Of a stretch of DNA of 64,000 nucleotides, positions 20,401 through 62,627 are shown piece after piece. The stretch is from Luteibacter aegosomaticola (GTDB lineage: Bacteria > Pseudomonadota > Gammaproteobacteria > Xanthomonadales > Rhodanobacteraceae): the NCBI RefSeq assembly GCF_023078475.1, contig NZ_CP095741.1:2232001-2296000 (forward strand). The letters run 5' to 3'. A model generated the notes under the pieces. It was not told the DNA's origin. It was given only the letters and a program-made list of their open reading frames with translations, and did not search any database. The position numbers and the translations under genes are program-made. Each line of letters begins with the position of its first letter. Position 1 is the first letter of the stretch.

Positions 20401-20423
20401 GCCTCGGCTCCAGGGGAGGGAAC

Positions 20424-21794: not shown

Positions 21795-21796
21795 GC

Positions 21797-32500: not shown

Positions 32501-32518
32501 TTACTTCTTCCTTGTAAA

Positions 32519-38453: not shown

Positions 38454-39320
38454 ATGATTCGTCGACGTGTTACTCGAGAGGCCAACGATCTGATGGCCGA
38501 GCTTGACCCGGAGCTTCTGGCCGTCGGTGCGGCTCGTGGCCTGCGCGGCAAGGCGGTGCGTATGTTGGCGTTATATAGGGCAGGTGCGCGGCGCGAGCTG
38601 AACGCGATCGTGTTCCCTGCCAAGCTTCAGCGCGAGGGGTTGTCGCTCGCGGCGCTATTGTCCATGCCCCAGCAGGAGCTGGTCGGTGTGATTCCGGACT
38701 ACCAGGGGCTGCGGGAGGGCGATACCGTGACGGCGATCATCCACCATCGGAGCGCTTACCGCACGGCGGTCGTGGGTACCATCTGTGTGTGCAATGCAAC
38801 CGGCCCGCTGACGTTTCGCTACAGCCGCGAGGTGCTTGAGCAGTTCGGCATGAACGGGCGTCTGGAGTTCAGCTACGAGATCGTCAATGCCAAGGGCGAT
38901 GTGACGGAGCGCTCTCCGACGACGACCCTGATGGTCCGATTGCACGATATGCAGGAGCGTCTCTCGGCACCGCAGATCAGCTGCAGCAGTGATGGCGTGG
39001 TGCGCGAGGTCGATATCGTCCCGGCGCTGGCGGTAGATATCCCGCTGGCTATCCCTGAGTTCCGCCCCTCGGATCGCGTTCACCTGCGCATCGGTGATGG
39101 CTGGTTCGAGCCGCTGAAGGTCGGTCGGCCTGACGGGAGCGGTGTCCGCGCAGCAACGCTCCTGGTGCCCTGCGATGACGTCTTGAGGATTCTCGAGGTG
39201 CAGGGTACGGGAACGTTCTCGCTCGAGGCCGCTTATGACATCGAGACGGGCGGCGTTCTCATCCCGTCGGAGGTCGCGGTCGTGACCTTTGATCTCAGCG
39301 GGCTGACCGCCGGCGGCTAA
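38454..39320 (+). CDS. Modular beta-rich protein, paralog (member 5)
   Basis: A 288-aa protein of unknown function. AAGGAGA precedes the ATG. The N-terminus is Arg-rich and helical (MIRRRVTREANDLMAELDPE). The central module (NAIVFPAKLQREGLSLAALL, then QQELVGVIPDYQGLREGDTV) matches the second module of members 1 and 4, and a third module includes FRPSDRVHLRIGDGWFEPLK. It converges with the reverse NRPS/EPS operon and overlaps its last gene by 4 bp. Confidence 0.75.
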   Translation: MIRRRVTREANDLMAELDPELLAVGAARGLRGKAVRMLALYRAGARRELNAIVFPAKLQREGLSLAALLSMPQQELVGVIPDYQGLREGDTVTAIIHHRSAYRTAVVGTICVCNATGPLTFRYSREVLEQFGMNGRLEFSYEIVNAKGDVTERSPTTTLMVRLHDMQERLSAPQISCSSDGVVREVDIVPALAVDIPLAIPEFRPSDRVHLRIGDGWFEPLKVGRPDGSGVRAATLLVPCDDVLRILEVQGTGTFSLEAAYDIETGGVLIPSEVAVVTFDLSGLTAGG

Positions 39321-40510
39321 AGTGCCTCGGCCGCCGGAGCCACTTGCGTGACGGGTGCATGCCCCGGCGGCGCAAGTTCGAAGTCGCGGTAGATGTTAGG
39401 GTTTCCGCGCATACCGGCTTCGGCGGCCTTGGCGATGTTGTACATCTCCCGGGCCGTCACGTAGTGCAACGCGTACTTCTCGCCGTCGTTGTAGCGGTCT
39501 TCGAGGTACGTGTGCATGGCATCGATCGGGGCACCCAGCAGGGTGTCCATGTCGCGTTCCTGGGTGCCGTGGGTATGGATCTTGACGAAGATCCATTCCG
39601 GACGCCCCTCGACGTGGATGCCCGTGTCGATCCACTGGTCCACGCGGTCGCGCGTCGGTGGGCAGGCTTTACGGATATCGGAGTTCTCGATCCGCGGGAT
39701 GATGCCGAAGCGCCGGTTCTTCCAGTTGAGGCCGAGGACGCCCTGGATGATGAGGAGATCGCCGCTCGGCTTGCCGCCCACGCGCATCGGCACGCCGGTG
39801 TCGTGGCCCTTCGGCTTGCCGTGGCTGTCCTCGGCGTAATAGATCGCATTGGACAGGCGCGTCTGGGTGTCGCTGGGGGCGGAGGGTAGGGTGAAGTCCG
39901 CATAGCAGCCTAGCTTGCGTAATAGGCCTAGCTCTTCGTTGATGCCGCACCAACGGCCATCGGGCCGGCTGTTGGCGAGGCACCAGTTCCCATGGATGAA
40001 CGCGAACTTCAACTGCCCTGTGACGGGGTCGCGCGGGAGCGCGCCATGACGCTCGTGAAGCAAGCGGTTAAACCGATCGATAGTGGTAACGAAGTTCTCA
40101 GGCGTATCGTCGTCGTGGTGCAGGTGGATTTCGATCTCGCCGTATCCGTCGGCACAGAGGCTCGCGATCTTGTCCAGGTGCTCCTCGACGTACTCTTCTT
40201 CCGGATAGAAGAAGCCGTGCTGGGGTGGCTTGCCATCGGCGTCGCGGTGGCGGCTGGCCATCTCGCGGTATTCCTTGCACCAGCGGTCGACGCGGTAGCG
40301 CTGCCGGTCCATGTCCACGCGGCCCCAGTTGGGTTCGAAGTGGTCGACAAAGCAGAACAGCACGTGGCGGGTGCCCTCGACCTTCGGCGGCTTGCGCCGG
40401 GTCAGGTAGCCCCATAGCCAGTACTGCATGTTTCGAGCACGAATGGCGACGGTCACGGCCGCAGCGAACAGCGCGACAGCCCCCAGGGCGACAAGAAGGG
40501 CGAGCATCAT
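39317..40510 (-). CDS. Membrane-anchored NodB-like deacetylase-related protein
   Basis: A 397-aa protein, last gene of the NRPS/EPS operon. One N-terminal membrane helix (MLALLVALGAVALFAAAVTVAI) followed by a soluble domain. VLFCFVDHFEPNWG provides an Asp-His pair and IEIHLHHDDDTPEN a His/Asp cluster, consistent with a metal-dependent beta/alpha-barrel deacetylase fold, though the canonical FDDGP and HxxxH motifs are absent. The ATG at 40510 overlaps the upstream glycosyltransferase stop. Probably modifies sugar residues at the inner-membrane face or periplasm; activity is inferential. Confidence 0.6.
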   Translation of the reverse strand: MMLALLVALGAVALFAAAVTVAIRARNMQYWLWGYLTRRKPPKVEGTRHVLFCFVDHFEPNWGRVDMDRQRYRVDRWCKEYREMASRHRDADGKPPQHGFFYPEEEYVEEHLDKIASLCADGYGEIEIHLHHDDDTPENFVTTIDRFNRLLHERHGALPRDPVTGQLKFAFIHGNWCLANSRPDGRWCGINEELGLLRKLGCYADFTLPSAPSDTQTRLSNAIYYAEDSHGKPKGHDTGVPMRVGGKPSGDLLIIQGVLGLNWKNRRFGIIPRIENSDIRKACPPTRDRVDQWIDTGIHVEGRPEWIFVKIHTHGTQERDMDTLLGAPIDAMHTYLEDRYNDGEKYALHYVTAREMYNIAKAAEAGMRGNPNIYRDFELAPPGHAPVTQVAPAAEAL

Positions 40511-41706
40511 GCGGTAGCTCCCGTCGGCACCAGCGTGAGCAGCTGCTCCGCGTTGTTGCGCCATTGGCGCTCGCTGGCGATGTATTCCCGTGCGGCCAGG
40601 CCGACCCGGCGGCGCTCTTCGGCTTCGCTGGCCAGGGCGAGTACGCGCTCCACGCAGGCGGTAGCGTCGCCGCGCGGGAACAGCCAGCCGGTGTGGCCGT
40701 CGGCGATGACCTCGGCGACCGGGGCGTAATCAGGTGCGACCACGGCGACGCCCATCCCCATCAGCTCAAACAGCTTCATCGGCGAGCCGTAGTGGTTGGA
40801 GTTGGGCAGGACGGCGTAATCCATGCAGGCGATCCAGCTGGCGATCTCGCTGTGCGGCACGCGCCCCGGCAGGAGCACGCGATCGCTGAGTCCGCGAGCG
40901 GCGACCAATTCGCGCACGGCGGGCAGCGTCTTGCCGTCGCCGACAAAGACCAGCGCCAGGCCTGGCGCTTGCGACAGCCGATTGGCGATCGCTTCCACGA
41001 AGGCATCCACGCCATGCCATTCCGCGAACACCCCGATATGCCCGCACACGGCGAGCCCGGTGAGCCCCCGGGCGGCGCGCAACGCATCGCGATCGAACTT
41101 CGACGGATCGAAGCTCGGCAGGTCGACGGCATTGGGCGAAATCACCGATGGCGCGATTTCGCCATAGGCTTCCACCGCCTTGTCACGAAAATAGGTCGAG
41201 ATGAACACCAGTCCCGTGGCGTGCCGAAAGCACCAGCGCTCCACGTGCCGTGCCAGCCGACGCAGGGTGAGCGGCCGCACGCGTTGCACCAGGGCGGAGT
41301 CGTTGATCTCCAGCACCACGGGAATACCGCGCCGGCGGGCCATCCAGATCGTGGCGAACAGGAACAGCGAATACCGCTCATAGATCAGCCGCGGTGGCTC
41401 GCTACGCCACGCCCGCCGCATCCGCACGAAGGTCACAGCGTTATAGATCAGCTCGAACATCTCGAAGACAATGCCCGGCAGCTTCGTCACCAGGCTCGCG
41501 AGCCCGCCACGTCCGGACGGAGCGCCCGAGGCTGTCGCGACCCGAACGCCGGCCACAGCACCCTCATGCTCCCGCTCCGGATCCGCCCCAGGAAACGACA
41601 TCACCGTCACCGAATGCCCCAACTCCCGCAGCGCATTCACGATCCCACGGATATGCACGCCCTCGACATGGCGCCCCCGGGTGCGGTGGTGGTAGAGGAT
41701 GTTCAC
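40507..41706 (-). CDS. Glycosyltransferase family 4 (GT-B)
   Basis: A 399-aa retaining glycosyltransferase. The GTG at 41706 gives the common opening MNILYHHRTRGRHVEGVHIR and overlaps the deacetylase stop (GTGA). The Rossmann segments GLAVCGHIGVFAEWHGVDAF and ALVFVGDGKTLPAV, and the E-x7-E-like MKLFELMGMGVAVVAPDYAPVAEV, are those of GT4. It adds one sugar to the lipid-linked repeat unit on the cytoplasmic side; donor unknown. Confidence 0.9.
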   Translation of the reverse strand: MNILYHHRTRGRHVEGVHIRGIVNALRELGHSVTVMSFPGADPEREHEGAVAGVRVATASGAPSGRGGLASLVTKLPGIVFEMFELIYNAVTFVRMRRAWRSEPPRLIYERYSLFLFATIWMARRRGIPVVLEINDSALVQRVRPLTLRRLARHVERWCFRHATGLVFISTYFRDKAVEAYGEIAPSVISPNAVDLPSFDPSKFDRDALRAARGLTGLAVCGHIGVFAEWHGVDAFVEAIANRLSQAPGLALVFVGDGKTLPAVRELVAARGLSDRVLLPGRVPHSEIASWIACMDYAVLPNSNHYGSPMKLFELMGMGVAVVAPDYAPVAEVIADGHTGWLFPRGDATACVERVLALASEAEERRRVGLAAREYIASERQWRNNAEQLLTLVPTGATA

Positions 41707-42341
41707 GCGTGGCTTCCCGGCAGGGCTTCGAAGCGCATGCCCTTGGCGAGCCACTCCGGTAGCAAGGTATCCAGGGCATCGGCCGCCTTGTCGCTGTCGT
41801 CGTGCATCAGCACGATATCGCCCGCTGCGGGCGGATCGTTACGCAGGCGGTCGATCAACCAATCGATCGGTTTGTCCTGATAATCCAGGCTGTCATACGA
41901 CCAGTACACGAAGCTGCGCCGCCGCCGCGCGAAATGCATCAACAGCTGGGCTCCGATATAGCCATGCGGCGGCCGCATCCGGTGGTGCGGCCGGTCATCG
42001 AACAGGCGGAGCAGGGCGTCGGTGCGGTACACCTCGTCCAGCTGCTTGCGCAGGTTCATGTTCCGGAACGACCAGTGGCTGTAGGAGTGGTTGCCGATCA
42101 TGTGGCCTTCGCCGACGATCCGCTGCACGATCTCCGGGTACTGCTCGATCTTCTCGCCGACGAGAAAGAAACTCGCCTTCACCCCGTGCCGCGCGAGCAC
42201 ATCCAGCAGCTTCGGCGTGTGCCCGGGCTCCGGGCCATCGTCGAAACTGAGGTAGCACACCGGGTCCCGCTTGGCCCGCGTCATCAGCAGGTGTTCGGGG
42301 AAGAGGCTCAGGAGTTCGTGTTTCTTGGGTCGGCGGATCAT
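41703..42341 (-). CDS. Polysaccharide deacetylase (CE4, NodB domain)
   Basis: A 212-aa metal-dependent N-acetyl-sugar deacetylase. Motif 1 is SFDDGPEPGHT (Asp34 base, Asp35 metal ligand), motif 2 HSYSH (His85, His89), motif 3 RPPHGYIG, and a late motif VLMHDDSD. All key residues of CE4 are present. No signal peptide or membrane helix is seen, so it may act in the cytoplasm on a lipid-linked intermediate. Overlaps its neighbours by 3-4 bp. Confidence 0.93.
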   Translation of the reverse strand: MIRRPKKHELLSLFPEHLLMTRAKRDPVCYLSFDDGPEPGHTPKLLDVLARHGVKASFFLVGEKIEQYPEIVQRIVGEGHMIGNHSYSHWSFRNMNLRKQLDEVYRTDALLRLFDDRPHHRMRPPHGYIGAQLLMHFARRRRSFVYWSYDSLDYQDKPIDWLIDRLRNDPPAAGDIVLMHDDSDKAADALDTLLPEWLAKGMRFEALPGSHA

Positions 42342-43510
42342 GCATTCATACTCACGTGAGCCGGCGCGCCGGCGGCGACGCGCTCGAGCATGCGCTCGAG
42401 CCGGTCGATGTTGTCATCCCAGCGGAACGTGCCCGCATGTGCGGCAATGGCCTCGGCATCGACCGGGCGGCCAAGCATCTCGGCCAGCGCTTTAGCGAGA
42501 AGATCAGGGTGGTGCGCCGGCACAAGCATCCCGGCGAACGACGGCACCACTTCAGGAATGCCGCCCACGGAAGTGGCGACCACCGGCGTGCCGCAGGCCA
42601 TGGCCTCAAGCACCACGTTCGGCACGCCCTCGTTATGGCTAGGCAGGCATAGCAGGTCGGCCGCGCGGAACCAGTCTGCCAGGGCGCCATGGGCGACGGA
42701 GCCCATGAAATGTACCGAAGCCCCGCAGCACAGCGAGGCAGCGCGGCTCTCCAGGGCGGACGCATCCGGACCGTCACCCACGAAGTACAAGCGCGCGTCA
42801 CGACGCGTCCGCGCCAGCATGGGGAACGCATCGATGAGGTCGGCGCAACCCTTACTCACTTTAAGGTTCCCGGCGTACAGCACCACGGGCTCGTGCGGTG
42901 GCAGGCCCAGGCGTTCGCGTGCCGCCTGGCGGTCGCCGCGACGGAACATCCGCCCATCGACGCCGTTGTAAATCGTCTCGACGGTCTCTGGCCGTGCGCC
43001 AATCTCAACAGCCTTGGTCGCCAAAGCCTTACTCACCGCCAGCACCGCCCCCGCGCCACGCAGCGCATGGCGGATCTGCGGCCGGCGCAGCCGCGAGGCC
43101 GCTTGGACATTTAGGTCGCTGCCATGCACCTTCACCACGTAAGGCACGCCCAGCAGCTGCGAGATCCACGCGGCGGCTGCGGCATCCGGGTAAGCCCAGC
43201 TGGCCAGGATCACGTCGTATCGTGCACGGCGCAGCTCGCGCCCGCGCTGCCACATCACGCAGGCGACGTAGCACAGGGCGTTGAGGAACCGGCCGATACC
43301 CGGCGGGTGATAAAAAGTGAAGTGATCGCGCTGCACATGCGGCACGTGAACCTGTCCCTGAGCCCCGGCCATGCGCTCGCGGAAATCCACGGCGGTCAGT
43401 ACATCCACTTCATGCCGCTCGCCCAACCGCTCGAACTGCTGCCGGTTGAAGGTGCCCCGGCGTGGATCCCACGGCGTGGGAAACAGGTTGGTGAGCACCA
43501 GGATTTTCAC
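42338..43510 (-). CDS. Glycosyltransferase family 4 (GT-B)
   Basis: A 390-aa GT4 enzyme. The GTG at 43510 overlaps the previous stop and gives MKILVLTNLFPTPWDPRRGT, typical for the family. KVHGSDLN, VLYAGNLKVSKGCADLI and the EGVPNVVLEAMACGTPVVAT signature (E-x7-E) are clear. Similar enzymes are recurrent in exosortase-associated EPS clusters. Donor and acceptor unknown. Confidence 0.92.
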   Translation of the reverse strand: MKILVLTNLFPTPWDPRRGTFNRQQFERLGERHEVDVLTAVDFRERMAGAQGQVHVPHVQRDHFTFYHPPGIGRFLNALCYVACVMWQRGRELRRARYDVILASWAYPDAAAAAWISQLLGVPYVVKVHGSDLNVQAASRLRRPQIRHALRGAGAVLAVSKALATKAVEIGARPETVETIYNGVDGRMFRRGDRQAARERLGLPPHEPVVLYAGNLKVSKGCADLIDAFPMLARTRRDARLYFVGDGPDASALESRAASLCCGASVHFMGSVAHGALADWFRAADLLCLPSHNEGVPNVVLEAMACGTPVVATSVGGIPEVVPSFAGMLVPAHHPDLLAKALAEMLGRPVDAEAIAAHAGTFRWDDNIDRLERMLERVAAGAPAHVSMNA

Positions 43511-44625
43511 GGCAGCGCCTCCATGTTGCCGAGGTACAGCCGCGTATAACGGGCCGCCATGGCCTGCAGCGAACCGTTCTGTTCTACCCACGAGCGTGCG
43601 GCACGGCCGAGCGCCGAGGCCTGCTGCGTCGTTTGCAGAAGCTCCAGCATGGCATCCGCCAGGGCCGGGGCATCGCAGGAAGGTACCAGCCGGCCGGTGG
43701 CGCGGTCCCGCACGATCTCGGCATTCCCGCCCACATCCGTCGCCACGATCGGCAGGCCAGCCGCGCACGCCTCCAGCAGCGCCATCGAATAGCCTTCGGT
43801 CACCGAGGACAAGGCGAACAAGTCGAGGCCCTGCAGCAATTCATGGACATCATCGCGGTCACCAAGGAAGTGCACGCATCCCGCGATACCTTCATCGTAG
43901 GCGCAGGCGCGCAAGGTCTCGCGCAGCTCGCCATCGCCGATCAGCACCAGCACGGTATCGCGCCGCTGGTGGCGCACGGCCCGGAACGCGCGAATCAGGC
44001 TGGCCTGGTCCTTGGCCCAGTTAAGCCGGCCAACCGTACCGATGATCCGGGTGCGCGCCGGCACGTTGAGCAGGCGCGCGAGGCGTTCGTGCATGGCGTC
44101 GTTAGCCACGTCGAACCCATCGAGTCGGATGCCATTCGGCACCACGCAACATTTACGCGCGGGGAACATGCCGCGATTCACCGCGTCACGGCGCGCCGCT
44201 TCGCATACCGCCACCACGGAATCCGTCGCCGCCATGGCCCTGCGGAACAGCCACTCGCGTCGCCCCGGCTTGCGCGTAGCGCCCATGCCGTGGCGTGTGT
44301 TGATCACCTGGCGGATGCCCATGCCGACCGTGGCGAGCACGGCCTGGTAGTGCGCCACCGCATTATGCGTATGCAGCACCTCGGTATGGTGGCTGTCGAT
44401 GAACTGCCGAGCCAGGCCGATGGCCCGCAGATCGAAGCCAGTGCGTTTCTCGCAGGCACGCACCGGGATGCCCTTGATCTCCAGCTCGGTCGCCATGGCG
44501 CCGCGCTCGAACAGGCACACCACCTGCACCTTGTGGCCTTCGCGGTGCTGCTGGGTGACAAGGTCGATGACCATGCGCTCCAGGCCACCGCGGTTCAGGT
44601 TTTCGACAACGTGGGTAATGTTCAC
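43507..44625 (-). CDS. Glycosyltransferase family 4, XrtA-associated type (TIGR03088-like)
   Basis: A 372-aa GT4 enzyme: opening HVVENLNRGGLERMVIDLV, nucleotide-binding IIGTVGRLNWAKDQASLIRA, and SSVTEGYSMALLEACAAGLP with the paired Glu. The NLNRGGLERMV start closely resembles the sugar transferases of PEP-CTERM/XrtA polysaccharide clusters. ATG overlaps the CapK-like ligase stop by 4 bp. Confidence 0.9.
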   Translation of the reverse strand: MNITHVVENLNRGGLERMVIDLVTQQHREGHKVQVVCLFERGAMATELEIKGIPVRACEKRTGFDLRAIGLARQFIDSHHTEVLHTHNAVAHYQAVLATVGMGIRQVINTRHGMGATRKPGRREWLFRRAMAATDSVVAVCEAARRDAVNRGMFPARKCCVVPNGIRLDGFDVANDAMHERLARLLNVPARTRIIGTVGRLNWAKDQASLIRAFRAVRHQRRDTVLVLIGDGELRETLRACAYDEGIAGCVHFLGDRDDVHELLQGLDLFALSSVTEGYSMALLEACAAGLPIVATDVGGNAEIVRDRATGRLVPSCDAPALADAMLELLQTTQQASALGRAARSWVEQNGSLQAMAARYTRLYLGNMEALP

Positions 44626-45980
44626 GAATCGAGCTCCGAGACGGTGACACGCAGCTTGCCGCTACGGGTAAGCGGGATGTCGTCGACGAAATGGCAGTGC
44701 AGCTGCGCACTGTCGCCCAGCACCTTCGCCACTTCGCGCTGGATGTACGCGAGCGACGCGTCGTTGAAGGCTTCGCCACGCACGATGGACAGGTCGAGGC
44801 GATCGATCGTGCGCTGCACGAGCTGGAAGCGCGTGAGCCCCGGCACATCCTTCAGCATGTGCGGGAAGAACTCGCCCGGCAGCACATGGCCCGCCGGCGT
44901 GCGTATCGCATCCAGCTTCCGGCCATCGACGCTGGCCAGCAGCGGCAACCCACGGCCGCACGCGCACAGCCCATGGAAGGGCGTGGCCATATCGCCGTTG
45001 ACGTAACGGATGAACGGCATGCCGTAGTTGAAAAGATCGGTGATGGCGACTTCGCCACTACCGTGCGTGCAAGGCTGGCCATCCGCAGAAAGCGTCTCCA
45101 CCATGAGGTGGTCGGCATTCACATGCAGCCCGTCGCGATGCTCGCATTCCGAAGCGATGAGCATGAACTCGCGGCAGCCATAGGTGTTGTACACCGGAGC
45201 GCCAAAAGCACGTTCGATCAGCTCACGCTGGAACGGATGCAAGGCCTCAGCCGCGCCGATGATGCTGACCGGGCGATGCGAGAGATGCCGGCCCGTATCA
45301 ACAAGAAACTGCGCGAGCCGCACCAACGGCCCCACATACGACACGATCACCTCGGGCCGGTAGGCCTCGACGGCGTCCGCATACGAAGAAAGATTGGCCT
45401 CGGTCATCGCAAAGCTGTTAAGCACCTTGCGCGCGAACACCGCGTTGTACACCTTGTCCTTGAACTGATGCGCCGCCGTAGGCGAACCCACCGCGCCACC
45501 CCACAGGAACAGCGTCCGTCGGCCCATGCGCGAACCGGCCCAGCCGTATCCACGCCACATCACGGCTACACGACGGTCATTGCTCTCGCGGGTATAGCCA
45601 AAGCGCAACGGCTCACCCGTGGAGCCGCCGGTGGCTTTATAGGCAAGCGTGTCCTTCAGCGAAGCCGCCTTCAGCGCATCACCCGCGGAACGGATATCCG
45701 CCTTCGTCAACACCGGCAGCAAGGCAACATCCGCAGGCGTGCGGATATCTTCCACAGACAACCCCATCTGCGCCCACCGGTCCCGATAGAACGGCACCTC
45801 GCGCTGGCACCAGGCCAGCAGCTTCTTCAACCGGCGGAACTGCAACTCGCGCAGCGCGTCGGCGGAGAGCCACTGCGTCTCGGCATACGAACGCAGGTGC
45901 CGCGGCGTTTCGCGGCGGCGCAGGCCGCCTTCATACGCGGGCCACAGCACGTGGCGGAGCAGGGGCTCGTAGAGGCTCAT
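44622..45980 (-). CDS. PaaK/CapK-like adenylate-forming enzyme
   Basis: A 452-aa AMP-forming enzyme of the phenylacetate-CoA ligase/CapK group common in capsule and EPS operons. ATP-binding motif YKATGGSTGEPLRFG and the later NTYGCREFMLIASECE and DLFNYGMPFIRYVNGD segments are typical, as is a C-terminal SGKLRVTVSE. Four Cys in CEHRDG and LCACGRG may bind zinc. It may activate an acid for attachment to the polymer or supply acyl groups to the NRPS line. ATG at 45980 overlaps the polymerase gene stop. Confidence 0.88.
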   Translation of the reverse strand: MSLYEPLLRHVLWPAYEGGLRRRETPRHLRSYAETQWLSADALRELQFRRLKKLLAWCQREVPFYRDRWAQMGLSVEDIRTPADVALLPVLTKADIRSAGDALKAASLKDTLAYKATGGSTGEPLRFGYTRESNDRRVAVMWRGYGWAGSRMGRRTLFLWGGAVGSPTAAHQFKDKVYNAVFARKVLNSFAMTEANLSSYADAVEAYRPEVIVSYVGPLVRLAQFLVDTGRHLSHRPVSIIGAAEALHPFQRELIERAFGAPVYNTYGCREFMLIASECEHRDGLHVNADHLMVETLSADGQPCTHGSGEVAITDLFNYGMPFIRYVNGDMATPFHGLCACGRGLPLLASVDGRKLDAIRTPAGHVLPGEFFPHMLKDVPGLTRFQLVQRTIDRLDLSIVRGEAFNDASLAYIQREVAKVLGDSAQLHCHFVDDIPLTRSGKLRVTVSELDS

Positions 45981-47236
45981 TGGGTTCGCAGCAGCACGGC
46001 CACCAGCACGAACAGGCCGGCGACACCACAGAAGGCGGCCGGCACCCAACGCCAGCCATCGCGGGAGAAGCGGAATGCGGGCAGCTCGGGCCAGCGGCGA
46101 CGGGCGCCCACATAATGGCCGGCGACCACGGCGGCGATCAGGTACAGCACCACCATGTAGCTGCGGCTCAGGAAGAACGCGGCGGCAAACAGGCCGCACA
46201 GCGAGAGCAACAACGTGAGGGCCAGCTGCCTTTCCATTGCCCATTCCGCCTCACGCCCCGGTTCGTTGCCGGCAGTATGCGGATGGCGGACGATCGTCAA
46301 CATCATCCAGAAGCCATAGCCTACAAAGGCAAGCCAGAGGATAAAGCCCAGGAAACCGGTCTCGGCGAGCACCAGCACGAAGGAGTTATGCGCGGTGAGC
46401 TCGTTGTACTCGGTGAAATTACCCGGGCCGACGCCCAGCAGGGGGCTGTCGCGGAACATCTCCAGGCCCGCGTACCAGGCATCCACGCGGCCGGCGGCGG
46501 ATTCTTCACCCGCATCCAGCTCGTCCATGCGCGAGGAAAGCACCTTCAGCGCCGCCAGGCCGATCACGCCCAGGGTGCCCGCCACCATGATCCCCTTGCG
46601 GTACCAGATATAGCAGCCCGCCACGACCAGCACGGCCAGCATCGCGCCGCGCGAGTTCGTCAGGTAGGTGCCGTAGAGCAACAGCACGGCGCAGGCCAGC
46701 CACAGCCAGCGCCCCGGTGCGCCACGGCGACCCAGGAACACCGCCATGGGCAGGGTGGCCGCGAAGAGCAGGCCCAGGTCGTTGGGGTCGTTGAAGATGC
46801 CCACGTACTGGATGCGGTTGCCCTCGCCAATCGGGATGCCCGTCCAGCCCATGCCCGTGCGCGCCTGCTCCACGCCGTGGAGGGCGAGCACGGCGGCGCA
46901 GGCCACGAACACGCCCATCGCCACGCGTACGCGCCGCTGGGTGGTGCAGCACGCACCCACGATGAAAAAGGCGATGACCACTGGCCCGAAATGAGACAGC
47001 TCATCAATGGCGCCGCCGGTCCAGCCGTTGCTTACCTGCGACACCATCAGGATCAGCAGGAAGCAGGGCAGGATGATGAATTGCGGGGCTTCGAAGGTTT
47101 TTTCGCGCGAGGTCAGCCAGGCCAGGAAAGCGAGGCCGAGCACCGCCGGCAGGATCGGCACCAGATCCAGCCCGGGGATGTAATCCTGCGGGCGGATGAT
47201 GGTGAGCACGACATACAGGAGGATCAGGGGGAACAT
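45977..47236 (-). CDS. Wzy/O-antigen ligase family membrane protein
   Basis: A 419-aa protein with about 11 helices. The Wzy_C region is seen as GVGPGNFTEYNELTAHNSFV, with the conserved His in AHNS. YLTNSRGAMLA is another family motif. It can be the polymerase that joins repeat units delivered by the Wzx flippase, or an O-glycosylation-type ligase as in exosortase-associated clusters (TIGR03097-like). It overlaps the deacetylase gene upstream by 13 bp. Confidence 0.87.
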   Translation of the reverse strand: MFPLILLYVVLTIIRPQDYIPGLDLVPILPAVLGLAFLAWLTSREKTFEAPQFIILPCFLLILMVSQVSNGWTGGAIDELSHFGPVVIAFFIVGACCTTQRRVRVAMGVFVACAAVLALHGVEQARTGMGWTGIPIGEGNRIQYVGIFNDPNDLGLLFAATLPMAVFLGRRGAPGRWLWLACAVLLLYGTYLTNSRGAMLAVLVVAGCYIWYRKGIMVAGTLGVIGLAALKVLSSRMDELDAGEESAAGRVDAWYAGLEMFRDSPLLGVGPGNFTEYNELTAHNSFVLVLAETGFLGFILWLAFVGYGFWMMLTIVRHPHTAGNEPGREAEWAMERQLALTLLLSLCGLFAAAFFLSRSYMVVLYLIAAVVAGHYVGARRRWPELPAFRFSRDGWRWVPAAFCGVAGLFVLVAVLLRTQ

Positions 47237-48333
47237 GCCTGCTCCTGCGGTCCCTGGGTCTCATGGGCCGCGGTGGGGTAGCTCATCAGCTGGGGAAGGG
47301 CCAGCATCGCCGCGAACCAGCCCGGGCCCATGTTCGCTTCCACCGGCAGGCGGTACAGCGAATAGCGGTTCTCGGACGGCTCGGGATTGGTCCCGCAGAC
47401 ATAGCTGCAGGCCAGCTGGAAGCCCGCCTTGCGCGTCGCGGCGATCACCGCTTCGTTGTAAGCGCGGTCGCCGCCCACGGGGTACGACATGAGGATCGCC
47501 GGGTTGCGCAGTTCGCGATCGAGCGTGCGCTTGGATTCCAGGATCTCGGCTTCCATTTCCTCCACCGGCAGGCGGGCCAGCATGCGGTGGTGCACGCCAT
47601 GCGAGCCGAACTCCAGGCCTGCCGCTTCCATCTCACGTGCCTGGTCCCACGTCATCGGCCGGCAATCGACCGGGCGGGCGCCTGCGGAAGGCATGTTCCA
47701 CTCCTGCTCCAGCCGCTCGGTCATGGCGCTCTGGCCGTGCGCGTCGAGCCATTTCATGCGCAGCAGCACGTTGCCTGCGATACGCCGGCGCAGCGAGCGC
47801 TCGGCAGGCAGCGCGATGTCGATGCCCAGCTCGGGCAGCACCAGGCGCGGCGCGCGCGTCATCAGGATCATATGGACCAGCCAGTCGTACAGATACGGCG
47901 TGCCGGTATCGATATGGCCGGTGGAAACGAAGAACGTGGCGGGCACGCCCACTTCATCGAGGATCGGCGCCGCGATGCGGTAGTTATCGTCGTAGCCGTC
48001 GTCGAAGGTCACGGCTACCGTATCCGGCGGCAGTGCTTCACCGGCGTCCAGCGCGGCCACGATATCGGTCAGGCGCATGGGCCGGAAATACTTCTTCAGG
48101 CGCCGCATCTGCTCGCGGAATTCGTCCGGCGGCGTGCTGATCAGCTCCATGTCGAACGGATAGGTTTCCGGGTCCGGCACCGGCATGACGCGGTGATAGG
48201 CAAGGATGCGCAGATCGCGCTGCAACCACGAGCGCACGCGTTGCAGCGAGTGCAGCAAGCCGCTGGAATAACACAACTCACCAAGCCGGCCACGAATGCC
48301 GGGAGCGCCACGTTGGTTCATATCGATCACCAT
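47224..48333 (-). CDS. Polysaccharide deacetylase family protein (XrtA-cluster-like)
   Basis: A 369-aa CE4-type protein. AVTFDDGYDDNY carries the catalytic Asp pair (Asp111, Asp112), ATFFVSTGHI follows, and EFGSHGVHHRML supplies the His motif; ILMSYPVGGDRAYNE and LYRLPVEANM close the domain. A 50-residue inset around 140-220 is longer than in minimal CE4 enzymes. No signal peptide. An ATG at 48321 is an alternative start; the one at 48333 overlaps the glycosyltransferase stop, which suits the operon. Confidence 0.88.
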   Translation of the reverse strand: MVIDMNQRGAPGIRGRLGELCYSSGLLHSLQRVRSWLQRDLRILAYHRVMPVPDPETYPFDMELISTPPDEFREQMRRLKKYFRPMRLTDIVAALDAGEALPPDTVAVTFDDGYDDNYRIAAPILDEVGVPATFFVSTGHIDTGTPYLYDWLVHMILMTRAPRLVLPELGIDIALPAERSLRRRIAGNVLLRMKWLDAHGQSAMTERLEQEWNMPSAGARPVDCRPMTWDQAREMEAAGLEFGSHGVHHRMLARLPVEEMEAEILESKRTLDRELRNPAILMSYPVGGDRAYNEAVIAATRKAGFQLACSYVCGTNPEPSENRYSLYRLPVEANMGPGWFAAMLALPQLMSYPTAAHETQGPQEQACSP

Positions 48334-49457
48334 AGGTGCAGCCTGCGGTTACGGGCGAAAGCAAGCAGGGCCTGCGCCGCGAAAAGGTTGAGGTAGAAGA
48401 ACGCTACGGCGATCCGCGCCGGCAGCCAGCTGCCGACACCGGGACGCAGGCGGGCCAGGCCCACCAACAACGCACCCGCGCCCAGGCCACAGAAGGCCAG
48501 GGCATACATCGGGTGACGGTTGAACAAAAAGCCCGTGCTAAGGAACAGCGCCACGATCAGCCAGGGTGCGAGTAGACGCAGCACTTTGTGGCTCATGAAA
48601 CAGAACCACAGCGGATTGCGGATGGGCGAAAGCAGCCAGGGGGCTAGCTGCAAAAGCTGGTAATTGCCGGCGAGCGTGCGGATCTTGCGGCGGCGCTCGG
48701 TTTCAGGTTCCTGCGAGGGCTGGTCCCACGCCATAGCGCGCGGCTCGAACACCACGCGCTTGCCCTGCGCGGCGACGCGCATGGGCACCATGACATCATC
48801 CAGCACGGTGCCGAGCGGCATCGGCGTGAACAGCGAGCGGCGCATCGCGTAGATCGCGCCGGTCACGCCGATCATCGAGCCTGCGGTGCTCTCCGCGTGG
48901 CGGATCATCTTCTCGTAGCGCCAGTAGAAATCCACGCCCTGGGCGAACCCCGTGCGAATGTTTTCCATGTGCAGTTCGCCGCTCACCGCGCCCACGGCAG
49001 GATCGGCCAGGTTGGCCACCAGCTCCTTCAGGGCCGCAGGTGAAAGCCGCTGGCGGACATCCGTCATCAGCAGCACTTCGCCGCGGGTGAGCGCGACGGC
49101 GTCGTTGACGCAGGCGGCCTTGCCGCGGCGGTTCGGGAAATCGAGCACGGTCAGCCGAGGGTCGGTGCTACGCCGGGCGACGGTCACCGTGTTGTCGTGG
49201 CAGCCATCGCAGGCGATCACGATATCGATGAGCTCGGCCGGGTAATCGAGGCCCTGCAGGTTGGCGAGCTTGGTACGGATGTGGCGCTCGCCGTCGTGCA
49301 CGGCCACCACGATGCTCACCGTCGGTAGCCACGCCTTGCGGGCCACCGGCCGCGGCCGCAGGCGCGCCCACAGCCAGATCAGCAGCGGGTAGCCCACGAA
49401 CACGTGGGCGAGTAGCAGCGCCGAGCCCCAGCAGGCCAACCAGACGATGTGTGTCAT
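48327..49457 (-). CDS. Membrane-bound glycosyltransferase family 2
   Basis: A 376-aa inner-membrane GT2. One N-terminal helix, then VSIVVAVHDGERHIRTKL, ACDGCHDNTVTVA and LLMTDVRQRLSP (DxD-equivalent), a GAIYAMRRSLF segment, and LDDVMVPMRV as the ED-type acceptor motif; QPSQEPETERRRKIR takes the place of QxxRW. Three C-terminal helices. Such proteins are processive or single-transfer enzymes adding sugars at the membrane. It follows the NRPS gene by only 28 bp, tying the NRPS and EPS genes into one transcript. Confidence 0.9.
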   Translation of the reverse strand: MTHIVWLACWGSALLLAHVFVGYPLLIWLWARLRPRPVARKAWLPTVSIVVAVHDGERHIRTKLANLQGLDYPAELIDIVIACDGCHDNTVTVARRSTDPRLTVLDFPNRRGKAACVNDAVALTRGEVLLMTDVRQRLSPAALKELVANLADPAVGAVSGELHMENIRTGFAQGVDFYWRYEKMIRHAESTAGSMIGVTGAIYAMRRSLFTPMPLGTVLDDVMVPMRVAAQGKRVVFEPRAMAWDQPSQEPETERRRKIRTLAGNYQLLQLAPWLLSPIRNPLWFCFMSHKVLRLLAPWLIVALFLSTGFLFNRHPMYALAFCGLGAGALLVGLARLRPGVGSWLPARIAVAFFYLNLFAAQALLAFARNRRLHLW

Positions 49458-49485
49458 GACGTCTCCCCCTTTGTCGACGTCGTGC

Positions 49486-55868
<6,383 letters not shown>

Positions 55869-55872
<4 letters not shown>

Positions 55873-58800
55873 GCGGTAACCCTCAGGTACTTGCCCGGCG
55901 CATCCGGGTTGGGAACGAACCACGCGGGCTGGCCATCCGGATCCTTGCCCAGCCGTGCCCCGGGTACGGGCGGCTGGTTCGGGTCGAGCGTGGCCGTGTC
56001 GCGGTGGCGCGGCAGGAATTCCGCTTCCTGCATTTCAAGGATGGATTCGCGGAACGCGCTCGCGATGGCTGCGAAGTCTTCCTCGCGATGCGCGGTGGTG
56101 AAGAAGCAGGGGAAGTTGTCCAGGATGTGGATGCCGCGGCTGCGCATCATCGCGAACAACAGGTCCTGCAACGGATGGTCTTCGGTGAACGTGGTCTTCC
56201 ACACCGAGGCGAAGTGAACGATCTTCACCGGCGCGCCTACGCTGGCGCAGAAGGCGTTGAGCTCTTCGGCCATGGCGGTGACCTTGGCGTTGAGCGTGGC
56301 CTGCAGGTCGGCACCGTGGTTCGTGAGGTGAGTGAGCACCGCATGCGCCGCGGCCAGGGCCAGCGGGTGGCGCACGAAGGTGCCGGCGAAGTAGGTGACG
56401 CCGACCGTCGGCACCGAGGCATCCCCGAAGCGCCAGTCGCCGCCATCCAGCGCATCCATGAAGCGCCGTTTGCCAGCGATGACGCCGATCGGGAAGCCTC
56501 CGCCGACGACCTTGCCGTACGAGGCCATGTCCGCATCGATGCCCAGCACATGCTGTGCGCCGCGCGGGTGGGAGCGGAAACCGGTGACCACTTCGTCGAA
56601 GATCAGCAGCGAACCGGCTTCTTCGGTAATGGCGCGCAGTTCCTGCAGGAATTCGATCGGCTGGAAATCAGGGCGGCGACTCTGCACCGGCTCGACCAGC
56701 ACCGCAGCGATCTCGTGCGCGCGCTCGCGGATGATCTGCAGCGATTCGGGCGTGCCGTAATCCAGCACCAGCACGTGTTCGGAGGTGTTGCGCAGGATGC
56801 CCGGTGCAGCCGGCACCGACTTCAGCTTCTTGGTGCCGCGCACGATCACTTCGTCGAAGATACCGTGGTACGAGCCGGTGAAGATCACCAGGGTGTCGCG
56901 GCCGGTGACGGTGCGTGCGACACGTACGCAGCCCATCACCGCTTCGGAGCCGGTGTTGCACAGGGCGGCGCGGTCGAAGCCGGTGAGGTCGCAGACCTGC
57001 TTCGCCACCGTGCCGGCGAGCGGGTGCTGCGGGCCGATCTCGTAGCCGGCGTCGAGCTGGTCGCGCACTGCATCGAGCACGAAGTCCGGCTGCCAGCCGA
57101 AGAGGTTCATGCCGAAGCCGTTGAGCGCATCGACATATTCGTTGCCGTCCAGGTCCCATACCTTCGGGCCCTTCGAGCGTTCCACCACGATCTGGTAGAT
57201 GATTTCCTTGAGCAACGGGCGGAAACCGTTGACCACGCGCGGGTCGGCCAGGTGGGCGCGGTGTTCGGTGGTGTAGGCCTTCGAAGCCTTGGTGCGCTCG
57301 ATGTAGCGGCGCATGAAGGCATCCAGGCGGGCGCGCTGGCGATTGCTGAGGTCGGTGCCGCCGGAGTGGATGCGGGCGATGGCGCCGAAGGCTTTTTTGA
57401 CGTCGTAGGTGGTGTGGGTTAGGGCGGCTTCTTCGGCGTCGGTGGGGGTTTGTGCGTTTTGTGTGGGGCTGGGGCGAAGGGCGTCGCCCACAGGGTGGGC
57501 TCCTACGGGTGCTGTCGGTGTGGGGGTGGAGATCACTGCCGGGGCGGCGGCGCCCGACAGCAACGCCAGCTGGTCCCGCATGATCTGCATCTGCTGCGCG
57601 ATCACATCCTGGATCAACCCACCACCGGCGGCGATAGGCGCCACCGGTGCCGCCGCCATGGCCGGCGCGGCGACAGGCGCCGGCGTGGCCACGGGTGCCG
57701 CCGGCGTGGTGTCCGCCGGCAGGAGACGATCGATATGCGCCGCGAGGCGCTCGAACGAGGAGCAACCATCCATCAACTCGCGGAAGGTGATCTTCAGCGC
57801 GTAGGTTTTCTGCAGCTGCAATGCCACCTGGGTCAGCGAAAGCGAATCCAGGCCCAGTTCCACGAAGTTGGCACCCGGGTCGATGTTGTCGAGTTCGGTG
57901 CCCGATACATCTTCGAACAGGGCGACCAGTTCACTCACGAGACGCTGCGGACGGGCGGAAGCGGCGGGCATCGGCATGGCCTCCAGGGCCTGAAGCAAGG
58001 TAGACAAGGGTTCAACGTAATCGCGTTCGCGCGCATCGAGCCGCGCGCTCTGTGTGGCATAGGTATCGGCATACGCACTCCCCACAAGGCTGCTATCCCC
58101 CCCTGTAGGAGCGTGCTTCGCACGCGATCCGCCGGTTTCACCGGCGGCCGGCTGCGAAAGAGGCAGCCCGGCAGCAATCGCCGTGACCGAAGCCGCAGGC
58201 CGGGCTTCCACCCAATGCCGCTTCCGTTCAAACGGATACGTCGGCAGGCGGACACGGCGGCGGTTGGCGCGGTGATCAAAAGCATCGACCTGCACGCCAA
58301 CACCCGCGGCCCATAGCGCACCGGCGGCATTCAGCAGCGCAGCACGCTCTTCGCCCGCGTTATCACCCAGCGAGGCGATGAACGTCCGGCCGCGCGCCTG
58401 CGCATGCTGCCGACCCAACTGGGTGAGGCTGCTGCGCGGACCCACTTCGACGAAGGCATGCGTGGCCTCATCCAGCGCATGCAGCAGCGCGGGGGAGAAG
58501 CGCACGGTGTCGCGCAGGTGGCGGGTCCAGTAGTCGGCCGAGAGGGCCTCGGCGTCGGTCAGCGGTGTGCCGGTCGCGGTAGAAATGATCGGCAGCCGCG
58601 GTGCATGGAGCGCGATGGCGCCGACCTCGGCGCGGAACGCGTCCAGAGCCGGATCCATCATCGCCGAATGGAACGCGTGTGAGGTATGCAGGAGCCGGCA
58701 GGCGACGCCATCGGCTTCCAGTACCGCCCGGAACGCATCGACATCAGCGTGCGTGCCCGAGGCCACCGTGGCGTTCGGAGCGTTCTCGGCCGCGAGAGAC

Positions 58801-61800
58801 AAAGCACCCGGGAGCCGCGCCCGCAGTTCGGCGGCGCCCAGGCGAACGGAAAGCATGGCGCCGGACGGCAGCGCCTGCATCAGGCGGCCGCGGCGTGCGA
58901 CAAGGCGGGCGGCATCCGCCAGCGACATCACACCGGCCAGGACCGCCGCAGTGAATTCGCCGACGCTATGGCCGATCATCGCCACCGGCTGCACGCCCAG
59001 GCTCATCCACAGGCGGGCGAGCGCGTATTCCAGTGCGAAGGTCGCAGGCTGGGTGAGGGCGGTCGCCTTGAGCGCTTCGGCGTCGTCATCGAACATCCGT
59101 TCACGCAGGTCGAAGCCGAGTTCATCACGCAGCGCGCAGGCCACCTCGTCGATCGCCGCGCGGAACACGGGTTCGGTGGCATGCAGTTCGCGGCCCATGC
59201 CGGCGTACTGCGAGCCCTGTCCCGGGAAGAGGAAGACCACGCCCGGTGCCGGGTTGCTCGATGTGTGGCAGATGGCAGCGGCGGCGATATCGCGCAGGCG
59301 CGCTTCGGCATCGGCGGCGGACACCGCGACGACATGCGTGCGCTGGCCGAAGGCCTTGCGGCCACGCGCCAGGGTGAACGCGGTATCGGCGAGGTTGCCG
59401 TCCGGGTGCGTAGTGAGGTGGTCGGCCAGACGCGCGGCAGCAGCAGCGAGGGCGGCCGGCGTGCGTGCGGAAAGGGTCAGCAGCTGCGGGCCCGTCGCGG
59501 CGTCCGAGGGCGTGCGTGCCGGGGCTTCCTCGAGGATCACGTGCGCATTGGTGCCGCCCACGCCAAACGAGCTCACACCCGCCAGCAACGGGCCGGCGCT
59601 CTGCCACGGCCGCAGCGTGTCGTTGACCACGAAGGGCGACGCGGCGAGGTTCAGGCGCGGGTTCGGTGCGGTGAAGTGCAGGGAGGGCGGCAAGCGGCGC
59701 TCGGCCATGGCCAGTGCGGTCTTGATCACGCCCGCCGCACCGGCCGCCATGACCAGGTGGCCCACGTTGCTCTTCAGCGAGCCGATGGCGCAGAAGCCGT
59801 TGTCGTTCGTGGTCTGGCGGAACGCCTGGGTGAGGCCTTCGATTTCGATGGGATCGCCAAGCGGCGTCGCGGTGCCGTGGGCTTCGATATACGAGATATC
59901 GCGCGCTTCGACACCGGCGTTATCCAGTGCCATGGTGATCACCGCGGCCTGGCCGGCGGCGTTCGGTGCGGTGAAGCTGGCCTTCACGGCGCCATCGTTG
60001 TTGATCGCGGCACCGCGGATCGTCGCGTAGATCGGATCGCCGTCGCGCAACGCATCGGAGAGGCGCTTGAGCAACACCACGGCCGCGCCGTCGCTGAACA
60101 CCGTGCCCTGCGCGTTCACGTCGAACGTGCGGGTATGGCCATCCGGCGACAGCATCGAGCCTTCCTGCGCGATGTAGCCGCTATTGGGCGGACAGGCGAT
60201 GGACGCACCGCCGGCCAGCGCCATGTTGCAACGGCCAGCGCGCAGCGCGTCGAATGCCTGGGCGATCGCCACCAGCGAGGTCGAGCAGGCGGTGTTCACG
60301 CTGATCGCCGGGCCGGTGAGGTTGAGCTTGTGCGCCACGCGGGTGGCGACGTAATCCTTCTCGTTGCCCAGCATCACCTGGAAGGCACCGAGCTTTTCAA
60401 TCAGGTCCGGGCGGCCGCTGATGTGCTTCTGGTAGTAGGTGGCGTTGTGCATGCCACCGAACACGCCCACCGGCACGTCCTGGCCATCAGGCACGTAACC
60501 GGCGCGCTCCATGCATTCCCAGCACAGCTCCATGAACAGGCGCTGCTGCGGATCGGTCAGTTCGGCCTCGCGCGGCGACATCCCGAAGAACGGCGCATCG
60601 AAATCACCGGCGTTATCGACGATGCCGCGGGCGAAGACATAGCCCGGGTCATCGCGGTCGCTGGCCGGTACCGCGGGGTCGAGTTCTTCCGGCGTGAAGA
60701 ACCGAATCGATTCACGGCCTTCGCACAGGTTGTCCCAGAACGCTTCCACATCCGGCGCACCCGGGAAGCGGCCGGCCATGGCGATGATCGCCACCGGTTC
60801 CCCGCCCGCCGGCGCGCCACTCGCCAGGCGTCCCGCCAACGCCTGCCGGGTAGCGCGCCCTTCAACCGTGGCCGCGATCGCGGCCGGGGTCGGGTCCGCG
60901 AAGAAGCCGACAAGGGTAGGGGTGGCGGAGAGCTCGGCATGGATGCGCGCCATCGCACGCGTCGCCAGCAACGAGTTACCGCCCAGGTCAAAGAAGTTGT
61001 CTTCGCGGCCGACGCGTTCCACGCCGAGGGTTTCCGCGAAGACGGTGCAAAGGGCAAGCTCGGTGGCACCCCGCGGTGCCACATACGGCGCCGCCAGCTC
61101 CGGCCGGGCACGGTCCGGCGCAGGCAACGCCTTGCGATCCAGCTTGCCATTCGCATTGATGGGCAACGCCTCCATCCGCAGCCAGGCGGTAGGCACCATG
61201 TACTCAGGCAGCGCGGAGGCCAACGCATCCCTGTAGGAGCGCGCTTGCGCGCGATCCCCCGCACCGTCAACCGGCACGTAATAAGCCACCAACCGCTTAT
61301 CCCCAGGCACATCCTCCCGCGCAATCACCGCAGCAGCAGCAACCCCCGGAAGCGCCCGCAACGCAAACTCAACCTCACCCGTCTCAATCCGATACCCACG
61401 AATCTTCACCTGCCCATCCACGCGGCCGATAAAGGCGAGATTCCCATCCGGAAGAAAACGCACGAGATCACCCGTGCGATACAACGTGCCGTGCTCGGAA
61501 GCGACAAACCGCTCCGCCGTCAGCTCCGGGCGGTTGAGGTAACCACGAGCCACGCCCGTACCACCGATATAAAGTTCGCCGATCTCACCTTCAGCGACAG
61601 GCTGGCGGTTCTCGTCCCACACATGCAGGGAGGTCTCACCGATGGGCATGCCAATGGGAATAGAGCCGGTATCAGCGGGAAGCTCATGCGGAATCGTGTA
61701 CGTGGTGGTGAACGTCGTGCACTCGGTGGGGCCATAGCCGTTCATCAGGGTGGTGGCCGGCAACGCCGCGAGCGCCTTGCGCACGTGCGGTACGGAAAGC

Positions 61801-62627
61801 GCCTCACCACCGGTCAGGATGCAACGCAGACCCGCCAGCTTCGTCGCGTCATCATCGACGATGGCATTGAACAGCGCAGCCGTCAGCCACGCGACCTCGG
61901 CGCCATGTTTCTCCACCGTACGGGCAATCCCGCAACCGGTCGGCACGCGCTCCTGGTAAACCACGCAGGTACCGCCATTCAACAGCGGCCCAAAAATCTC
62001 CAGCGTCGACGCATCAAACCCCAGCGGCGCCGCATGCAAAACCTTAGGCGCATCAAAATCGATGTAATCCGACTTCAGCACCAGGCGAAGAATCGACTTA
62101 TGCCGAATCTCCACGCCCTTGGGCGTCCCCGTAGACCCCGAGGTATACATCGCATAAGCAAGATCGTCGGCGGCGCCGTTGTAGGAGCGCGCTTGCGCGC
62201 GATGGGAGCCCGGCTCGGCCGAAAACTCCCCCATCCCAAACACCGGAACCTCAACCTCCCCAACGGCGCCAGGCTCATCCGCCACCACAGCAGCCACATC
62301 CGCATCCCGCAACGCAAACCCCACGCGCTCCTTCGGCCAGCTCCCATCAATCGGCAAATAAGCCGCACCCGCCTTCAACACACCAAACACGGCCACAAGT
62401 GCCAGCGCCGAACGTTCCATCAGCAGCGCAACATACGAACCCGGTTCCACCCCAGCCGCGACCAGCCCATCGGCAACCGCATCACTACGCGCATCAAGCT
62501 CGGCATACGTCAGCGTCAGATCATCCGAAGCAATCGCGACCCGCTCCGGATACTCGGCCACCATGAGCGCAAAGCGCCCCTGCACCGTGGCATCCCGCGC
62601 GCTATCAAGGAGAAACCCGTCATTCAT
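55869..62627 (-). CDS. Hybrid NRPS/PKS with aminotransferase domain, A-T-KS-AT-ACP-AMT
   Basis: A 2252-aa megasynthase. Domains: adenylation ([10 protein letters not shown] near 162, [20 protein letters not shown] near 399, NGKLDRKAL near 493), carrier (LGGNSLL, Ser about 551), ketosynthase (active Cys about 781 in [18 protein letters not shown] near 914; KSNVGH near 952), acyltransferase (GHSVGEF, Ser about 1221; HAFH motif predicts malonyl-CoA), carrier (LGLDSLS, Ser about 1595), Ala/Pro linker, and class III aminotransferase (about 1710-2180, [21 protein letters not shown] Lys about 2039 in YGKVVGGG). This order resembles MycA/ItuA-type beta-amino acid modules. No ketoreductase or release domain. 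Palindromic repeats are encoded in frame at four places. First large gene of the reverse operon. Confidence 0.95.
57481..57506. repeat. Half REP-like element inside the megasynthase gene
   Basis: The 26 bases ending cagggtgggctcctac match the right arm of the 89-106 bp elements seen at 519, 652, 2170 and 13093. They are read in frame as [11 protein letters not shown] in the Ala/Pro/Thr-rich linker between the second carrier and the aminotransferase domain. Confidence 0.75.
58105..58128. repeat. Variant second-type palindrome inside the megasynthase gene
   Basis: gtaggagcgtgcttcgcacg is a compensated variant of the gtaggagcgcgc unit with its arms changed together (gcgtgc/gcacgc). It is translated as SRAKHAPTG in the linker after the acyltransferase domain. 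Confidence 0.75.
61233..61255. repeat. Second-type palindrome inside the adenylation domain (copy 1)
   Basis: A 23-bp exact unit beginning gtaggagcgcgcttgcgcgc, read on the coding strand as DRAQARSY at about residues 458-465, between the VAYYVP strand and the ALPEYMVP motif. The same peptide occurs in copy 2. Confidence 0.85.
62181..62203. repeat. Second-type palindrome inside the adenylation domain (copy 2)
   Basis: Identical 23-bp unit, in the same orientation and reading frame, giving HRAQARSY at about residues 142-149, shortly before the ATP-binding loop [10 protein letters not shown]. Both copies therefore add the same basic octapeptide-like loop to the domain. Confidence 0.85.

Follow-up and report, generated by a model that had tools for sequence, protein, structure and literature searches.

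Why do genes for a peptide assembly line lie within a run of polysaccharide genes? The question is raised by a stretch of 64,000 nucleotides from Luteibacter aegosomaticola (NZ_CP095741.1, positions 2,232,001 to 2,296,000 of assembly GCF_023078475.1, a genome of 5.09 Mb in one contig), hereafter called the window, in which genes for a polyketide synthase (PKS) and a nonribosomal peptide synthetase (NRPS) precede glycosyltransferase genes on the minus strand. We found that the joining of a diamino-peptide assembly line to exopolysaccharide (EPS) genes is real and conserved. The reading that we tentatively favor, with a little less than even confidence, is that the PKS and NRPS provide the thiotemplate machinery of an XrtA-like EPS locus that has no exosortase, and that their peptide is put on the polysaccharide.

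Domain content and predicted product of the assembly line

Pfam searches resolved the PKS into adenylation (A), thiolation (T), ketosynthase (KS), acyltransferase (AT), acyl carrier protein (ACP) and class III aminotransferase domains, the order in which an earlier note on this DNA had read them, and the NRPS into two condensation (C), two A-type and two T domains. The KS has the motif NTACST, and the AT has GHSVG and HAFH; the latter, which we take to denote malonyl extension, agrees with the single malonyl unit proposed in that note. Transamination to a beta-amino acid, likewise proposed, is borne out by the aminotransferase domain, whose best solved relative is mycosubtilin synthase subunit A (MycA; 6kfm, E 4.6e-121 over nearly the full length). 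Both C domains of the NRPS keep HHxxxDG and both T domains keep GGHS. The two condensations foreseen earlier stand, on the evidence of the C domains; overlooked was that the second A domain lacks the ATP-binding motif TSGSTGxPKG. No thioesterase domain was found by Pfam in the window NRPS, and no GxSxG motif occurs in the last 350 residues of any of 55 NRPSs with two C motifs. A condensation-family search of the genome gave two matches, both within this NRPS. The NRPS relatives considered below are the best 80 of at least 584 (loci are numbered with L, genomes with G); among the matches listed, the window protein is nearest to Luteibacter NRPSs, with a top identity of 90% (L014).

The starter domain of the PKS exceeds the cut-off for amino-acid adenylation domains (TIGR01733, 403 bits against 317.4). 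Nine-residue specificity codes were taken from an alignment, in which two reference domains gave identical columns, and were assigned to valine, proline, threonine, serine or glycine types by residue meanings that we assume. The window starter code, DALWLGGTF, follows the pattern DA(L/F)W(L/M)GGTF of the Luteibacter and Dyella PKSs, a valine type. Elsewhere the starter is of proline type (DVQF(I/V)AHVV in L019, L021, L023, L030, L038 and L066; DVQFIAHVI in L040) or threonine type (DFWNIGMVH in L048, L053 and L058; DFWNIGMVF in L043), and three codes were unreadable (L027, L029 and L080). The first A domain of the NRPS is mostly glycine-like (DILQ...), with serine types in L035, L037, L050 to L055 and L064, threonine types in L057 and L058, and an unread code in L048. 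All 19 intact second A domains have a glycine-type code; the first A domain of the same NRPSs begins with DILQ in 17 and is of serine type in L037 and L050.

These codes suggest a valine starter followed by glycine-like modules, and hence a beta,gamma-diamino acyl dipeptide. With a valine-type code, a beta,gamma-diamino acid is therefore expected and not a lipid tail, which narrows the amino starter of the earlier note to valine and speaks against the lipopeptide it had also allowed. In the scheme that we propose, the PKS A domain would load valine, the KS and AT would add one malonyl unit, and the MycA-like aminotransferase would convert the beta-ketone into 3,4-diamino-5-methylhexanoyl-ACP. 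The NRPS would then add two small residues, predicted to be glycine-like, and the chain would finish on the last T domain, with no thioesterase to release it. The assembly line thus probably builds a small amine-rich peptide, whose residue identities are predicted from the codes. Two observations count against glycine as the added residue: the first A code of the window and of most Luteibacter, DIMQVGGVY, is a drifted glycine code, and in several Burkholderiales the first A domain is of serine or threonine type. The lineage-dependent starter codes (valine, proline, threonine or serine types) make the rule checkable by chemistry.

Decay of the second A domain

An aminotransferase PKS abuts the NRPS in 57 of the 80 loci. 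Apart from L064, whose NRPS is short and without the second A motif, the second A motif is intact in 19 of these; 16 were scored as having the domain but not the motif, 20 as having no such domain, and 1 is truncated (n = 56), and some of the 16 (L027, L029 and L040) may instead lack the domain and bear a C-terminal extension. The NRPS frames of L027, L028, L029, L040 and L043, none with an intact second A motif, extend a few hundred residues past the usual end and may carry an extra terminal domain.

The second A domain of the window is dead. It is 82% identical to that of L014, against 92 to 97% for the other domains, and 64 to 65% identical to those of L013 and L005, against 84 to 92%. A missing motif and faster evolution would also be expected if the whole line were a decaying remnant without a present role, of which the dead domain is the sign. 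We regard this as very improbable, since C1, A1, C2, T1 and T2 are 84 to 97% identical between the window and its close relatives L014, L013 and L005, with open frames, and loci wholly without the second A domain retain C-A-T-C and usually the T motif.

Because the second A domain is dead, the first probably loads both carriers, which would be the simplest reading of the loss; such double loading would cost nothing where both carriers take the same residue. In Burkholderiales with a serine-type first A domain, the loss would mean a changed second residue. We considered whether a PaaK-like gene in the run substitutes for the dead domain by loading the second T domain, and rejected this because relatives of that gene are also present in Dyella and Rhodanobacter loci whose second A domain is intact (L017, L018, L020, L036, L050, L062 and L067).

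Conserved linkage to polysaccharide genes

Linkage was surveyed in 97 genomes of the family, with the aminotransferase domain rather than the whole PKS as query (E ≤ 1e-80) and with the operon deacetylase counted at 50% identity or more. The deacetylase was found in 31 genomes (the next best match had 33% identity, and weaker matches in 36 further genomes were left out of the count) and the aminotransferase in 45. Both occur in 28 genomes, always on one contig, within 30 kb of each other in 27 and 107 kb apart in one; three genomes have the deacetylase without the aminotransferase. The co-occurrence has a Fisher p of 1.8e-9, a statistic that ignores shared ancestry. All seven genomes of the genus have both genes. 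Linkage to glycosyltransferase and Wzy-type genes was seen in Luteibacter, Dyella and Rhodanobacter, and, together with the family survey, upholds the conserved association on which the earlier note had staked its proposal. A class-wide search found the aminotransferase at E ≤ 1e-150 in 4 of 369 genomes, the window's own included; at most four candidates per genome were scored at this strict threshold, which makes absence weak evidence.

For counts of the chain length determinant TIGR03007 and of exosortases, 40 genomes with the assembly line were selected from the best 80 relatives. TIGR03007 was over cut-off in 34 of them (not in G125, G128, G130, G131, G132 and G135). In the 33 genomes with both TIGR03007 and the aminotransferase, the two genes lie 12 to 50 kb apart on the same contig in 23 and on different contigs in 10. 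In a Burkholderiales metagenome-assembled genome (MAG; L064), TIGR03007 and TIGR03018, both over cut-off, directly precede the PKS, and a phosphopantetheinyl transferase (PPTase)-like gene, below cut-off, follows the NRPS. No exosortase (PF09721) was found in the genome of the window, where a role for one was rejected on this ground, or in 32 of the 40 line-bearing genomes. This is therefore not an XrtA protein-sorting locus.

A hydrolase pair as the candidate release step

The window also holds genes that the earlier note had overlooked: XrtA-type export genes at 17 to 29 kb, some 11 to 22 kb from the end of the operon, and two alpha/beta-hydrolase genes, hydr2 and hydr1, that may replace the thioesterase. 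In both the window and Rhodanobacter sp. L36, the hydrolase pair follows the export genes. Among the 50 loci with an abutting aminotransferase PKS and at least 4 kb of sequence downstream, hydr1 and/or hydr2 lies at the 3' end of the NRPS in 24 (both in 23) and the operon deacetylase in 19; both kinds are found only in L044, and neither in 8. Among these eight, the pair precedes the PKS in L028 and is on the opposite strand in L080, and L050 has a Wzy-type gene instead. By tblastn, L080 has two hydr1/hydr2 sets, both running opposite to the NRPS, as the pair also does in an Archangium MAG (L059).

The nucleophile elbow of hydr1 has Cys in all 38 aligned sequences, the window's included, and hydr2 has Arg at the nucleophile place in 38 of 39, the exception being L059. 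In profile alignments, both residues fall on the Ser column of solved hydrolases, presumably the catalytic Ser. Predicted models of hydr1 and hydr2 (mean pLDDT [predicted local distance difference test] of 87.8 and 87.1) place Cys112 of hydr1 and Arg114 of hydr2 (hydr2 minus 38 residues) at the strand-helix turn. With TM-scores mostly of 0.5 to 0.6, the hydr1 model matches the thioesterase DcsB as well as esterases and many alpha/beta-hydrolases; this fold is common and decides neither for transfer nor for hydrolysis.

The same pair occurs at XrtA-type loci. Of 274 genomes of the class, 22 (L093 to L114) have a TIGR03100 match over cut-off. There, hydr1 has Cys and His in 21 of 21 aligned sequences (L100 dropped) and hydr2 has Arg in 20 of 20 (L100, a fused frame, and L104, at a contig edge, dropped). 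In 19 of 21 XrtA loci, a count made without a shuffled control, an open frame before hydr2 has a carrier motif; one of the other two is cut off and one has none, and the two carrier-like frames checked both matched PF00550. The hydrolase pair thus tends to follow a carrier protein in both settings. Two XrtA loci annotated in more detail (L115 and L118) have TIGR03098 and TIGR03099 over cut-off nearby; among the scanned window proteins none matched these families over cut-off, the rest of the genome not having been searched.

On these grounds, the missing release step is probably performed by the neighboring hydr2/hydr1 pair: hydr1, through its Cys nucleophile, and the Arg-bearing pseudo-partner hydr2 would take the chain off the carrier and transfer it. 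The acceptor would most likely be the amino groups that the two deacetylases expose on the polysaccharide, and the neighboring Wzx, Wzy, chain-length and export genes would handle the remaining steps. Together, these features suggest a polysaccharide decorated with the peptide of the PKS/NRPS line. Transfer to some other acceptor, such as a lipid carrier, a glycolipid or a protein of the locus, would fit the XrtA loci, where hydr1/hydr2 would serve a carrier protein, and the presence here of further acyltransferase-type genes (PF13480). We hold this to be distinctly unlikely, since the run itself encodes two deacetylases, whose action would leave amino groups on the repeat units as acceptors.

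Several observations weigh against transfer to the polysaccharide by this pair. Neither hydrolase directly follows the NRPS in 26 of the 50 loci, and the window pair lies on the other strand, some 26 kb from the NRPS. Of the 45 family genomes with the aminotransferase, 17 are without the operon deacetylase. A Cys nucleophile alone cannot separate transfer from hydrolysis. Finally, residue 135 of hydr1 (at about position 22974 of the window) is Asp in 24 and Glu in 1 of 25 NRPS-linked sequences and Asn in 21 of 21 XrtA sequences; the two groups may use different catalytic acids. At residue 245, all 25 NRPS-linked sequences have Asp, and the XrtA sequences divide into 11 with Asp and 10 with Asn.

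The assembly line without recognized EPS genes

Further evidence on the same side comes from Variovorax (G128) and Corallococcus (G135), where the PKS, the NRPS and the hydrolase pair occur without recognized EPS genes nearby, as judged by tblastn of EPS queries over L066 and L121 to L124 and by searches of 10 open reading frames (ORFs) against Pfam and three L066 ORFs against NCBIfam. The Variovorax core includes a PPTase-like gene, and one family 2 glycosyltransferase (GT2) lies within about 20 kb of it. A LuxR-type regulator is near the Corallococcus core, whose contig runs on for about 5 kb beyond the NRPS. Thus the core either can stand separate from EPS genes or may act in trans for an EPS locus. 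In Variovorax sp. J22R133 (L121), a resistance-nodulation-division (RND) efflux pump with an HlyD-type partner adjoins hydr1/hydr2 on the other strand, and could export a free product.

These loci raise the alternative that the product is a free, diffusible diamino peptide (a signal, metal binder or antibiotic); hydr1 would then be a conventional thioesterase acting in trans, and the EPS genes would be long-standing neighbors, perhaps co-regulated. The likeness of the hydr1 model to esterases and DcsB is consistent with this, as is the Variovorax core beside its RND pump. What argues the other way is that, in Xanthomonadales, the line is closely and conservedly linked to genes for a deacetylase, a Wzy-type protein and a chain length determinant, and that none of the window's operon genes was recognized as a dedicated exporter; on balance, we consider a free peptide unlikely, though a serious contender. 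Decoration of the polysaccharide remains the reading that we prefer. A broader form of it would define a new class of decoration, in which a diamino acyl dipeptide is moved from carrier to sugar by a Cys hydrolase with an Arg pseudo-partner and the same pair serves the ACP cassettes of XrtA/PEP-CTERM loci. We give this form slightly less weight because of the Variovorax and Corallococcus counterexamples and the changed Asp135, and view it as possible but doubtful.

If decoration is correct, nonribosomal peptide synthesis would be joined to EPS assembly, and amine-rich, peptide-bearing matrices would be predicted in many Xanthomonadales of soil and water. It would also suggest a testable function for the hydrolase 1/hydrolase 2 pair, as a Cys enzyme and a pseudoenzyme beside a carrier protein; in NCBIfam the two are named solely for their association with exosortase A.

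Gene layout and transcription signals

All 11 minus-strand ORFs between 39317 and 62627 are open, and neighbors overlap or, at one junction, are 28 bp apart (Table 1). The eleven-gene run on one strand described earlier is confirmed in this respect; its count of nine polysaccharide genes is not, as one of the nine is PaaK-like and another has no family match. The PKS starts with an ATG at 62627 and shares ATGA (55869 to 55872) with the NRPS. The 28 bp between the NRPS stop and the GT2 start (g9) contain a ribosome-binding-like stretch, GGGGGAG, and no visible hairpin. A scan from 44 to 64 kb listed no promoter-like site, where shuffled sequence would give 2.6, and 10 terminator-like sites, as many as the 10.0 of the shuffles. 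No listed site lies between the NRPS and g9. Outside the scan's list, a GC-rich hairpin followed by T's was noted by eye upstream of the PKS (about 62940 to 62912, minus strand). From this layout, the genes would form one operon. In high-GC relative loci, genes were chosen by a codon-position score.

Table 1. Features of the window (positions count from its first nucleotide)
Feature	Position	Strand	Basis or remark
Polysaccharide export protein	17407..18057	+	PF02563
XrtA-type chain length determinant TIGR03007	18097..19629	+	386.9 bits, cut-off 278.85
XrtA-type tyrosine kinase	19642..20400	+	TIGR03018, below cut-off
Outer membrane protein	20397..21794	+	TIGR03016, below cut-off
hydr2, alpha/beta-hydrolase, Arg at nucleophile place, probable pseudoenzyme	21677..22573	+	TIGR03101 relative, below cut-off
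hydr1, alpha/beta-hydrolase, Cys112 nucleophile, His246	22570..23403	+	TIGR03100 relative, below cut-off
UDP-glucose 4-epimerase GalE	23400..24401	+	Profile match
Wzx-type flippase	25984..27636	+	PF01943
GNAT/FemAB-like acyltransferase	27633..28766	+	PF13480
Unknown protein, last gene of run	39317..40564	-	No family match; relatives in some Luteibacter/Dyella loci
GT4 glycosyltransferase	40507..41754	-	Profile match
Polysaccharide deacetylase, NodB/PgdA-like	41703..42341	-	Profile match
GT4 glycosyltransferase	42338..43768	-	Profile match
GT4 glycosyltransferase, TIGR03088-like below cut-off	43507..44625	-	Profile match
PaaK-like adenylate-forming enzyme	44622..46244	-	Below curated cut-offs
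Wzy/O-antigen-ligase-type membrane protein	45977..47236	-	PF04932
Polysaccharide deacetylase, PgaB-like stretch below cut-off	47224..48333	-	Profile match
GT2 glycosyltransferase (g9)	48327..49457	-	Profile match
NRPS, C-A-T-C-A*-T, no thioesterase domain found	49486..55872	-	Pfam and motifs
Degenerate second A domain (A*) of NRPS	49804..51291	-	Motif missing; faster evolution than neighboring domains
PKS, A-T-KS-AT-ACP-aminotransferase; starter A code DALWLGGTF	55869..62627	-	Pfam, motifs, code
Class III aminotransferase domain of PKS, MycA-like	55989..57341	-	Match to 6kfm

The two parts of the EPS locus are separated by a possible insert (28776 to 34576 and 34838 to 37228), with three large proteins that have no family matches, two of them with lowered third-position GC, and an autotransporter barrel. 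Upstream of the PKS, a protein with Big_2 (Ig-like) repeats occupies 63021 to 63998 and runs on past the window as an ORF of 1238 amino acids (L003, 3022 to 6738); it is a possible surface adhesin.

Comparison with known systems

No description of such a locus was found in our searches of open-licence literature, judged mostly on titles and the beginnings of abstracts. To our knowledge, the role of the ACP-based cassettes in XrtA/PEP-CTERM loci is unexplained; Craig et al. reportedly described, in 2011, N-acyl amino acid synthases near PEP-CTERM loci. Like the window, XrtA/PEP-CTERM EPS loci have TIGR03007 over cut-off and hydr2-hydr1 genes whose products carry identical Arg and Cys residues. 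Unlike them, the window has a PKS/NRPS line, its genome has no exosortase, and its hydrolases score below cut-off (79.4 of 168.45 bits for hydr1 with TIGR03100; 79.1 of 202.75 bits for hydr2 with TIGR03101).

MycA-type modules, to which the microginin and microcystin lines are related, share with the window a class III aminotransferase placed after KS-AT-ACP and the passing of a beta-amino acyl chain to an NRPS. The loading domain of MycA is a fatty-acid loader, whereas the window starter is an amino-acid A domain with a valine code; the window line also differs in having no thioesterase and in its EPS-locus setting. The sheath polysaccharides of Sphaerotilus and Leptothrix carry short attached peptides. 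They are of amino-sugar composition, and a cited title names a thiopeptidoglycan lyase (PMC11087309). These amino-sugar polysaccharides offer a possible parallel, likened here by composition. The closest kin of the locus are the MycA-type modules and the XrtA-type EPS loci.

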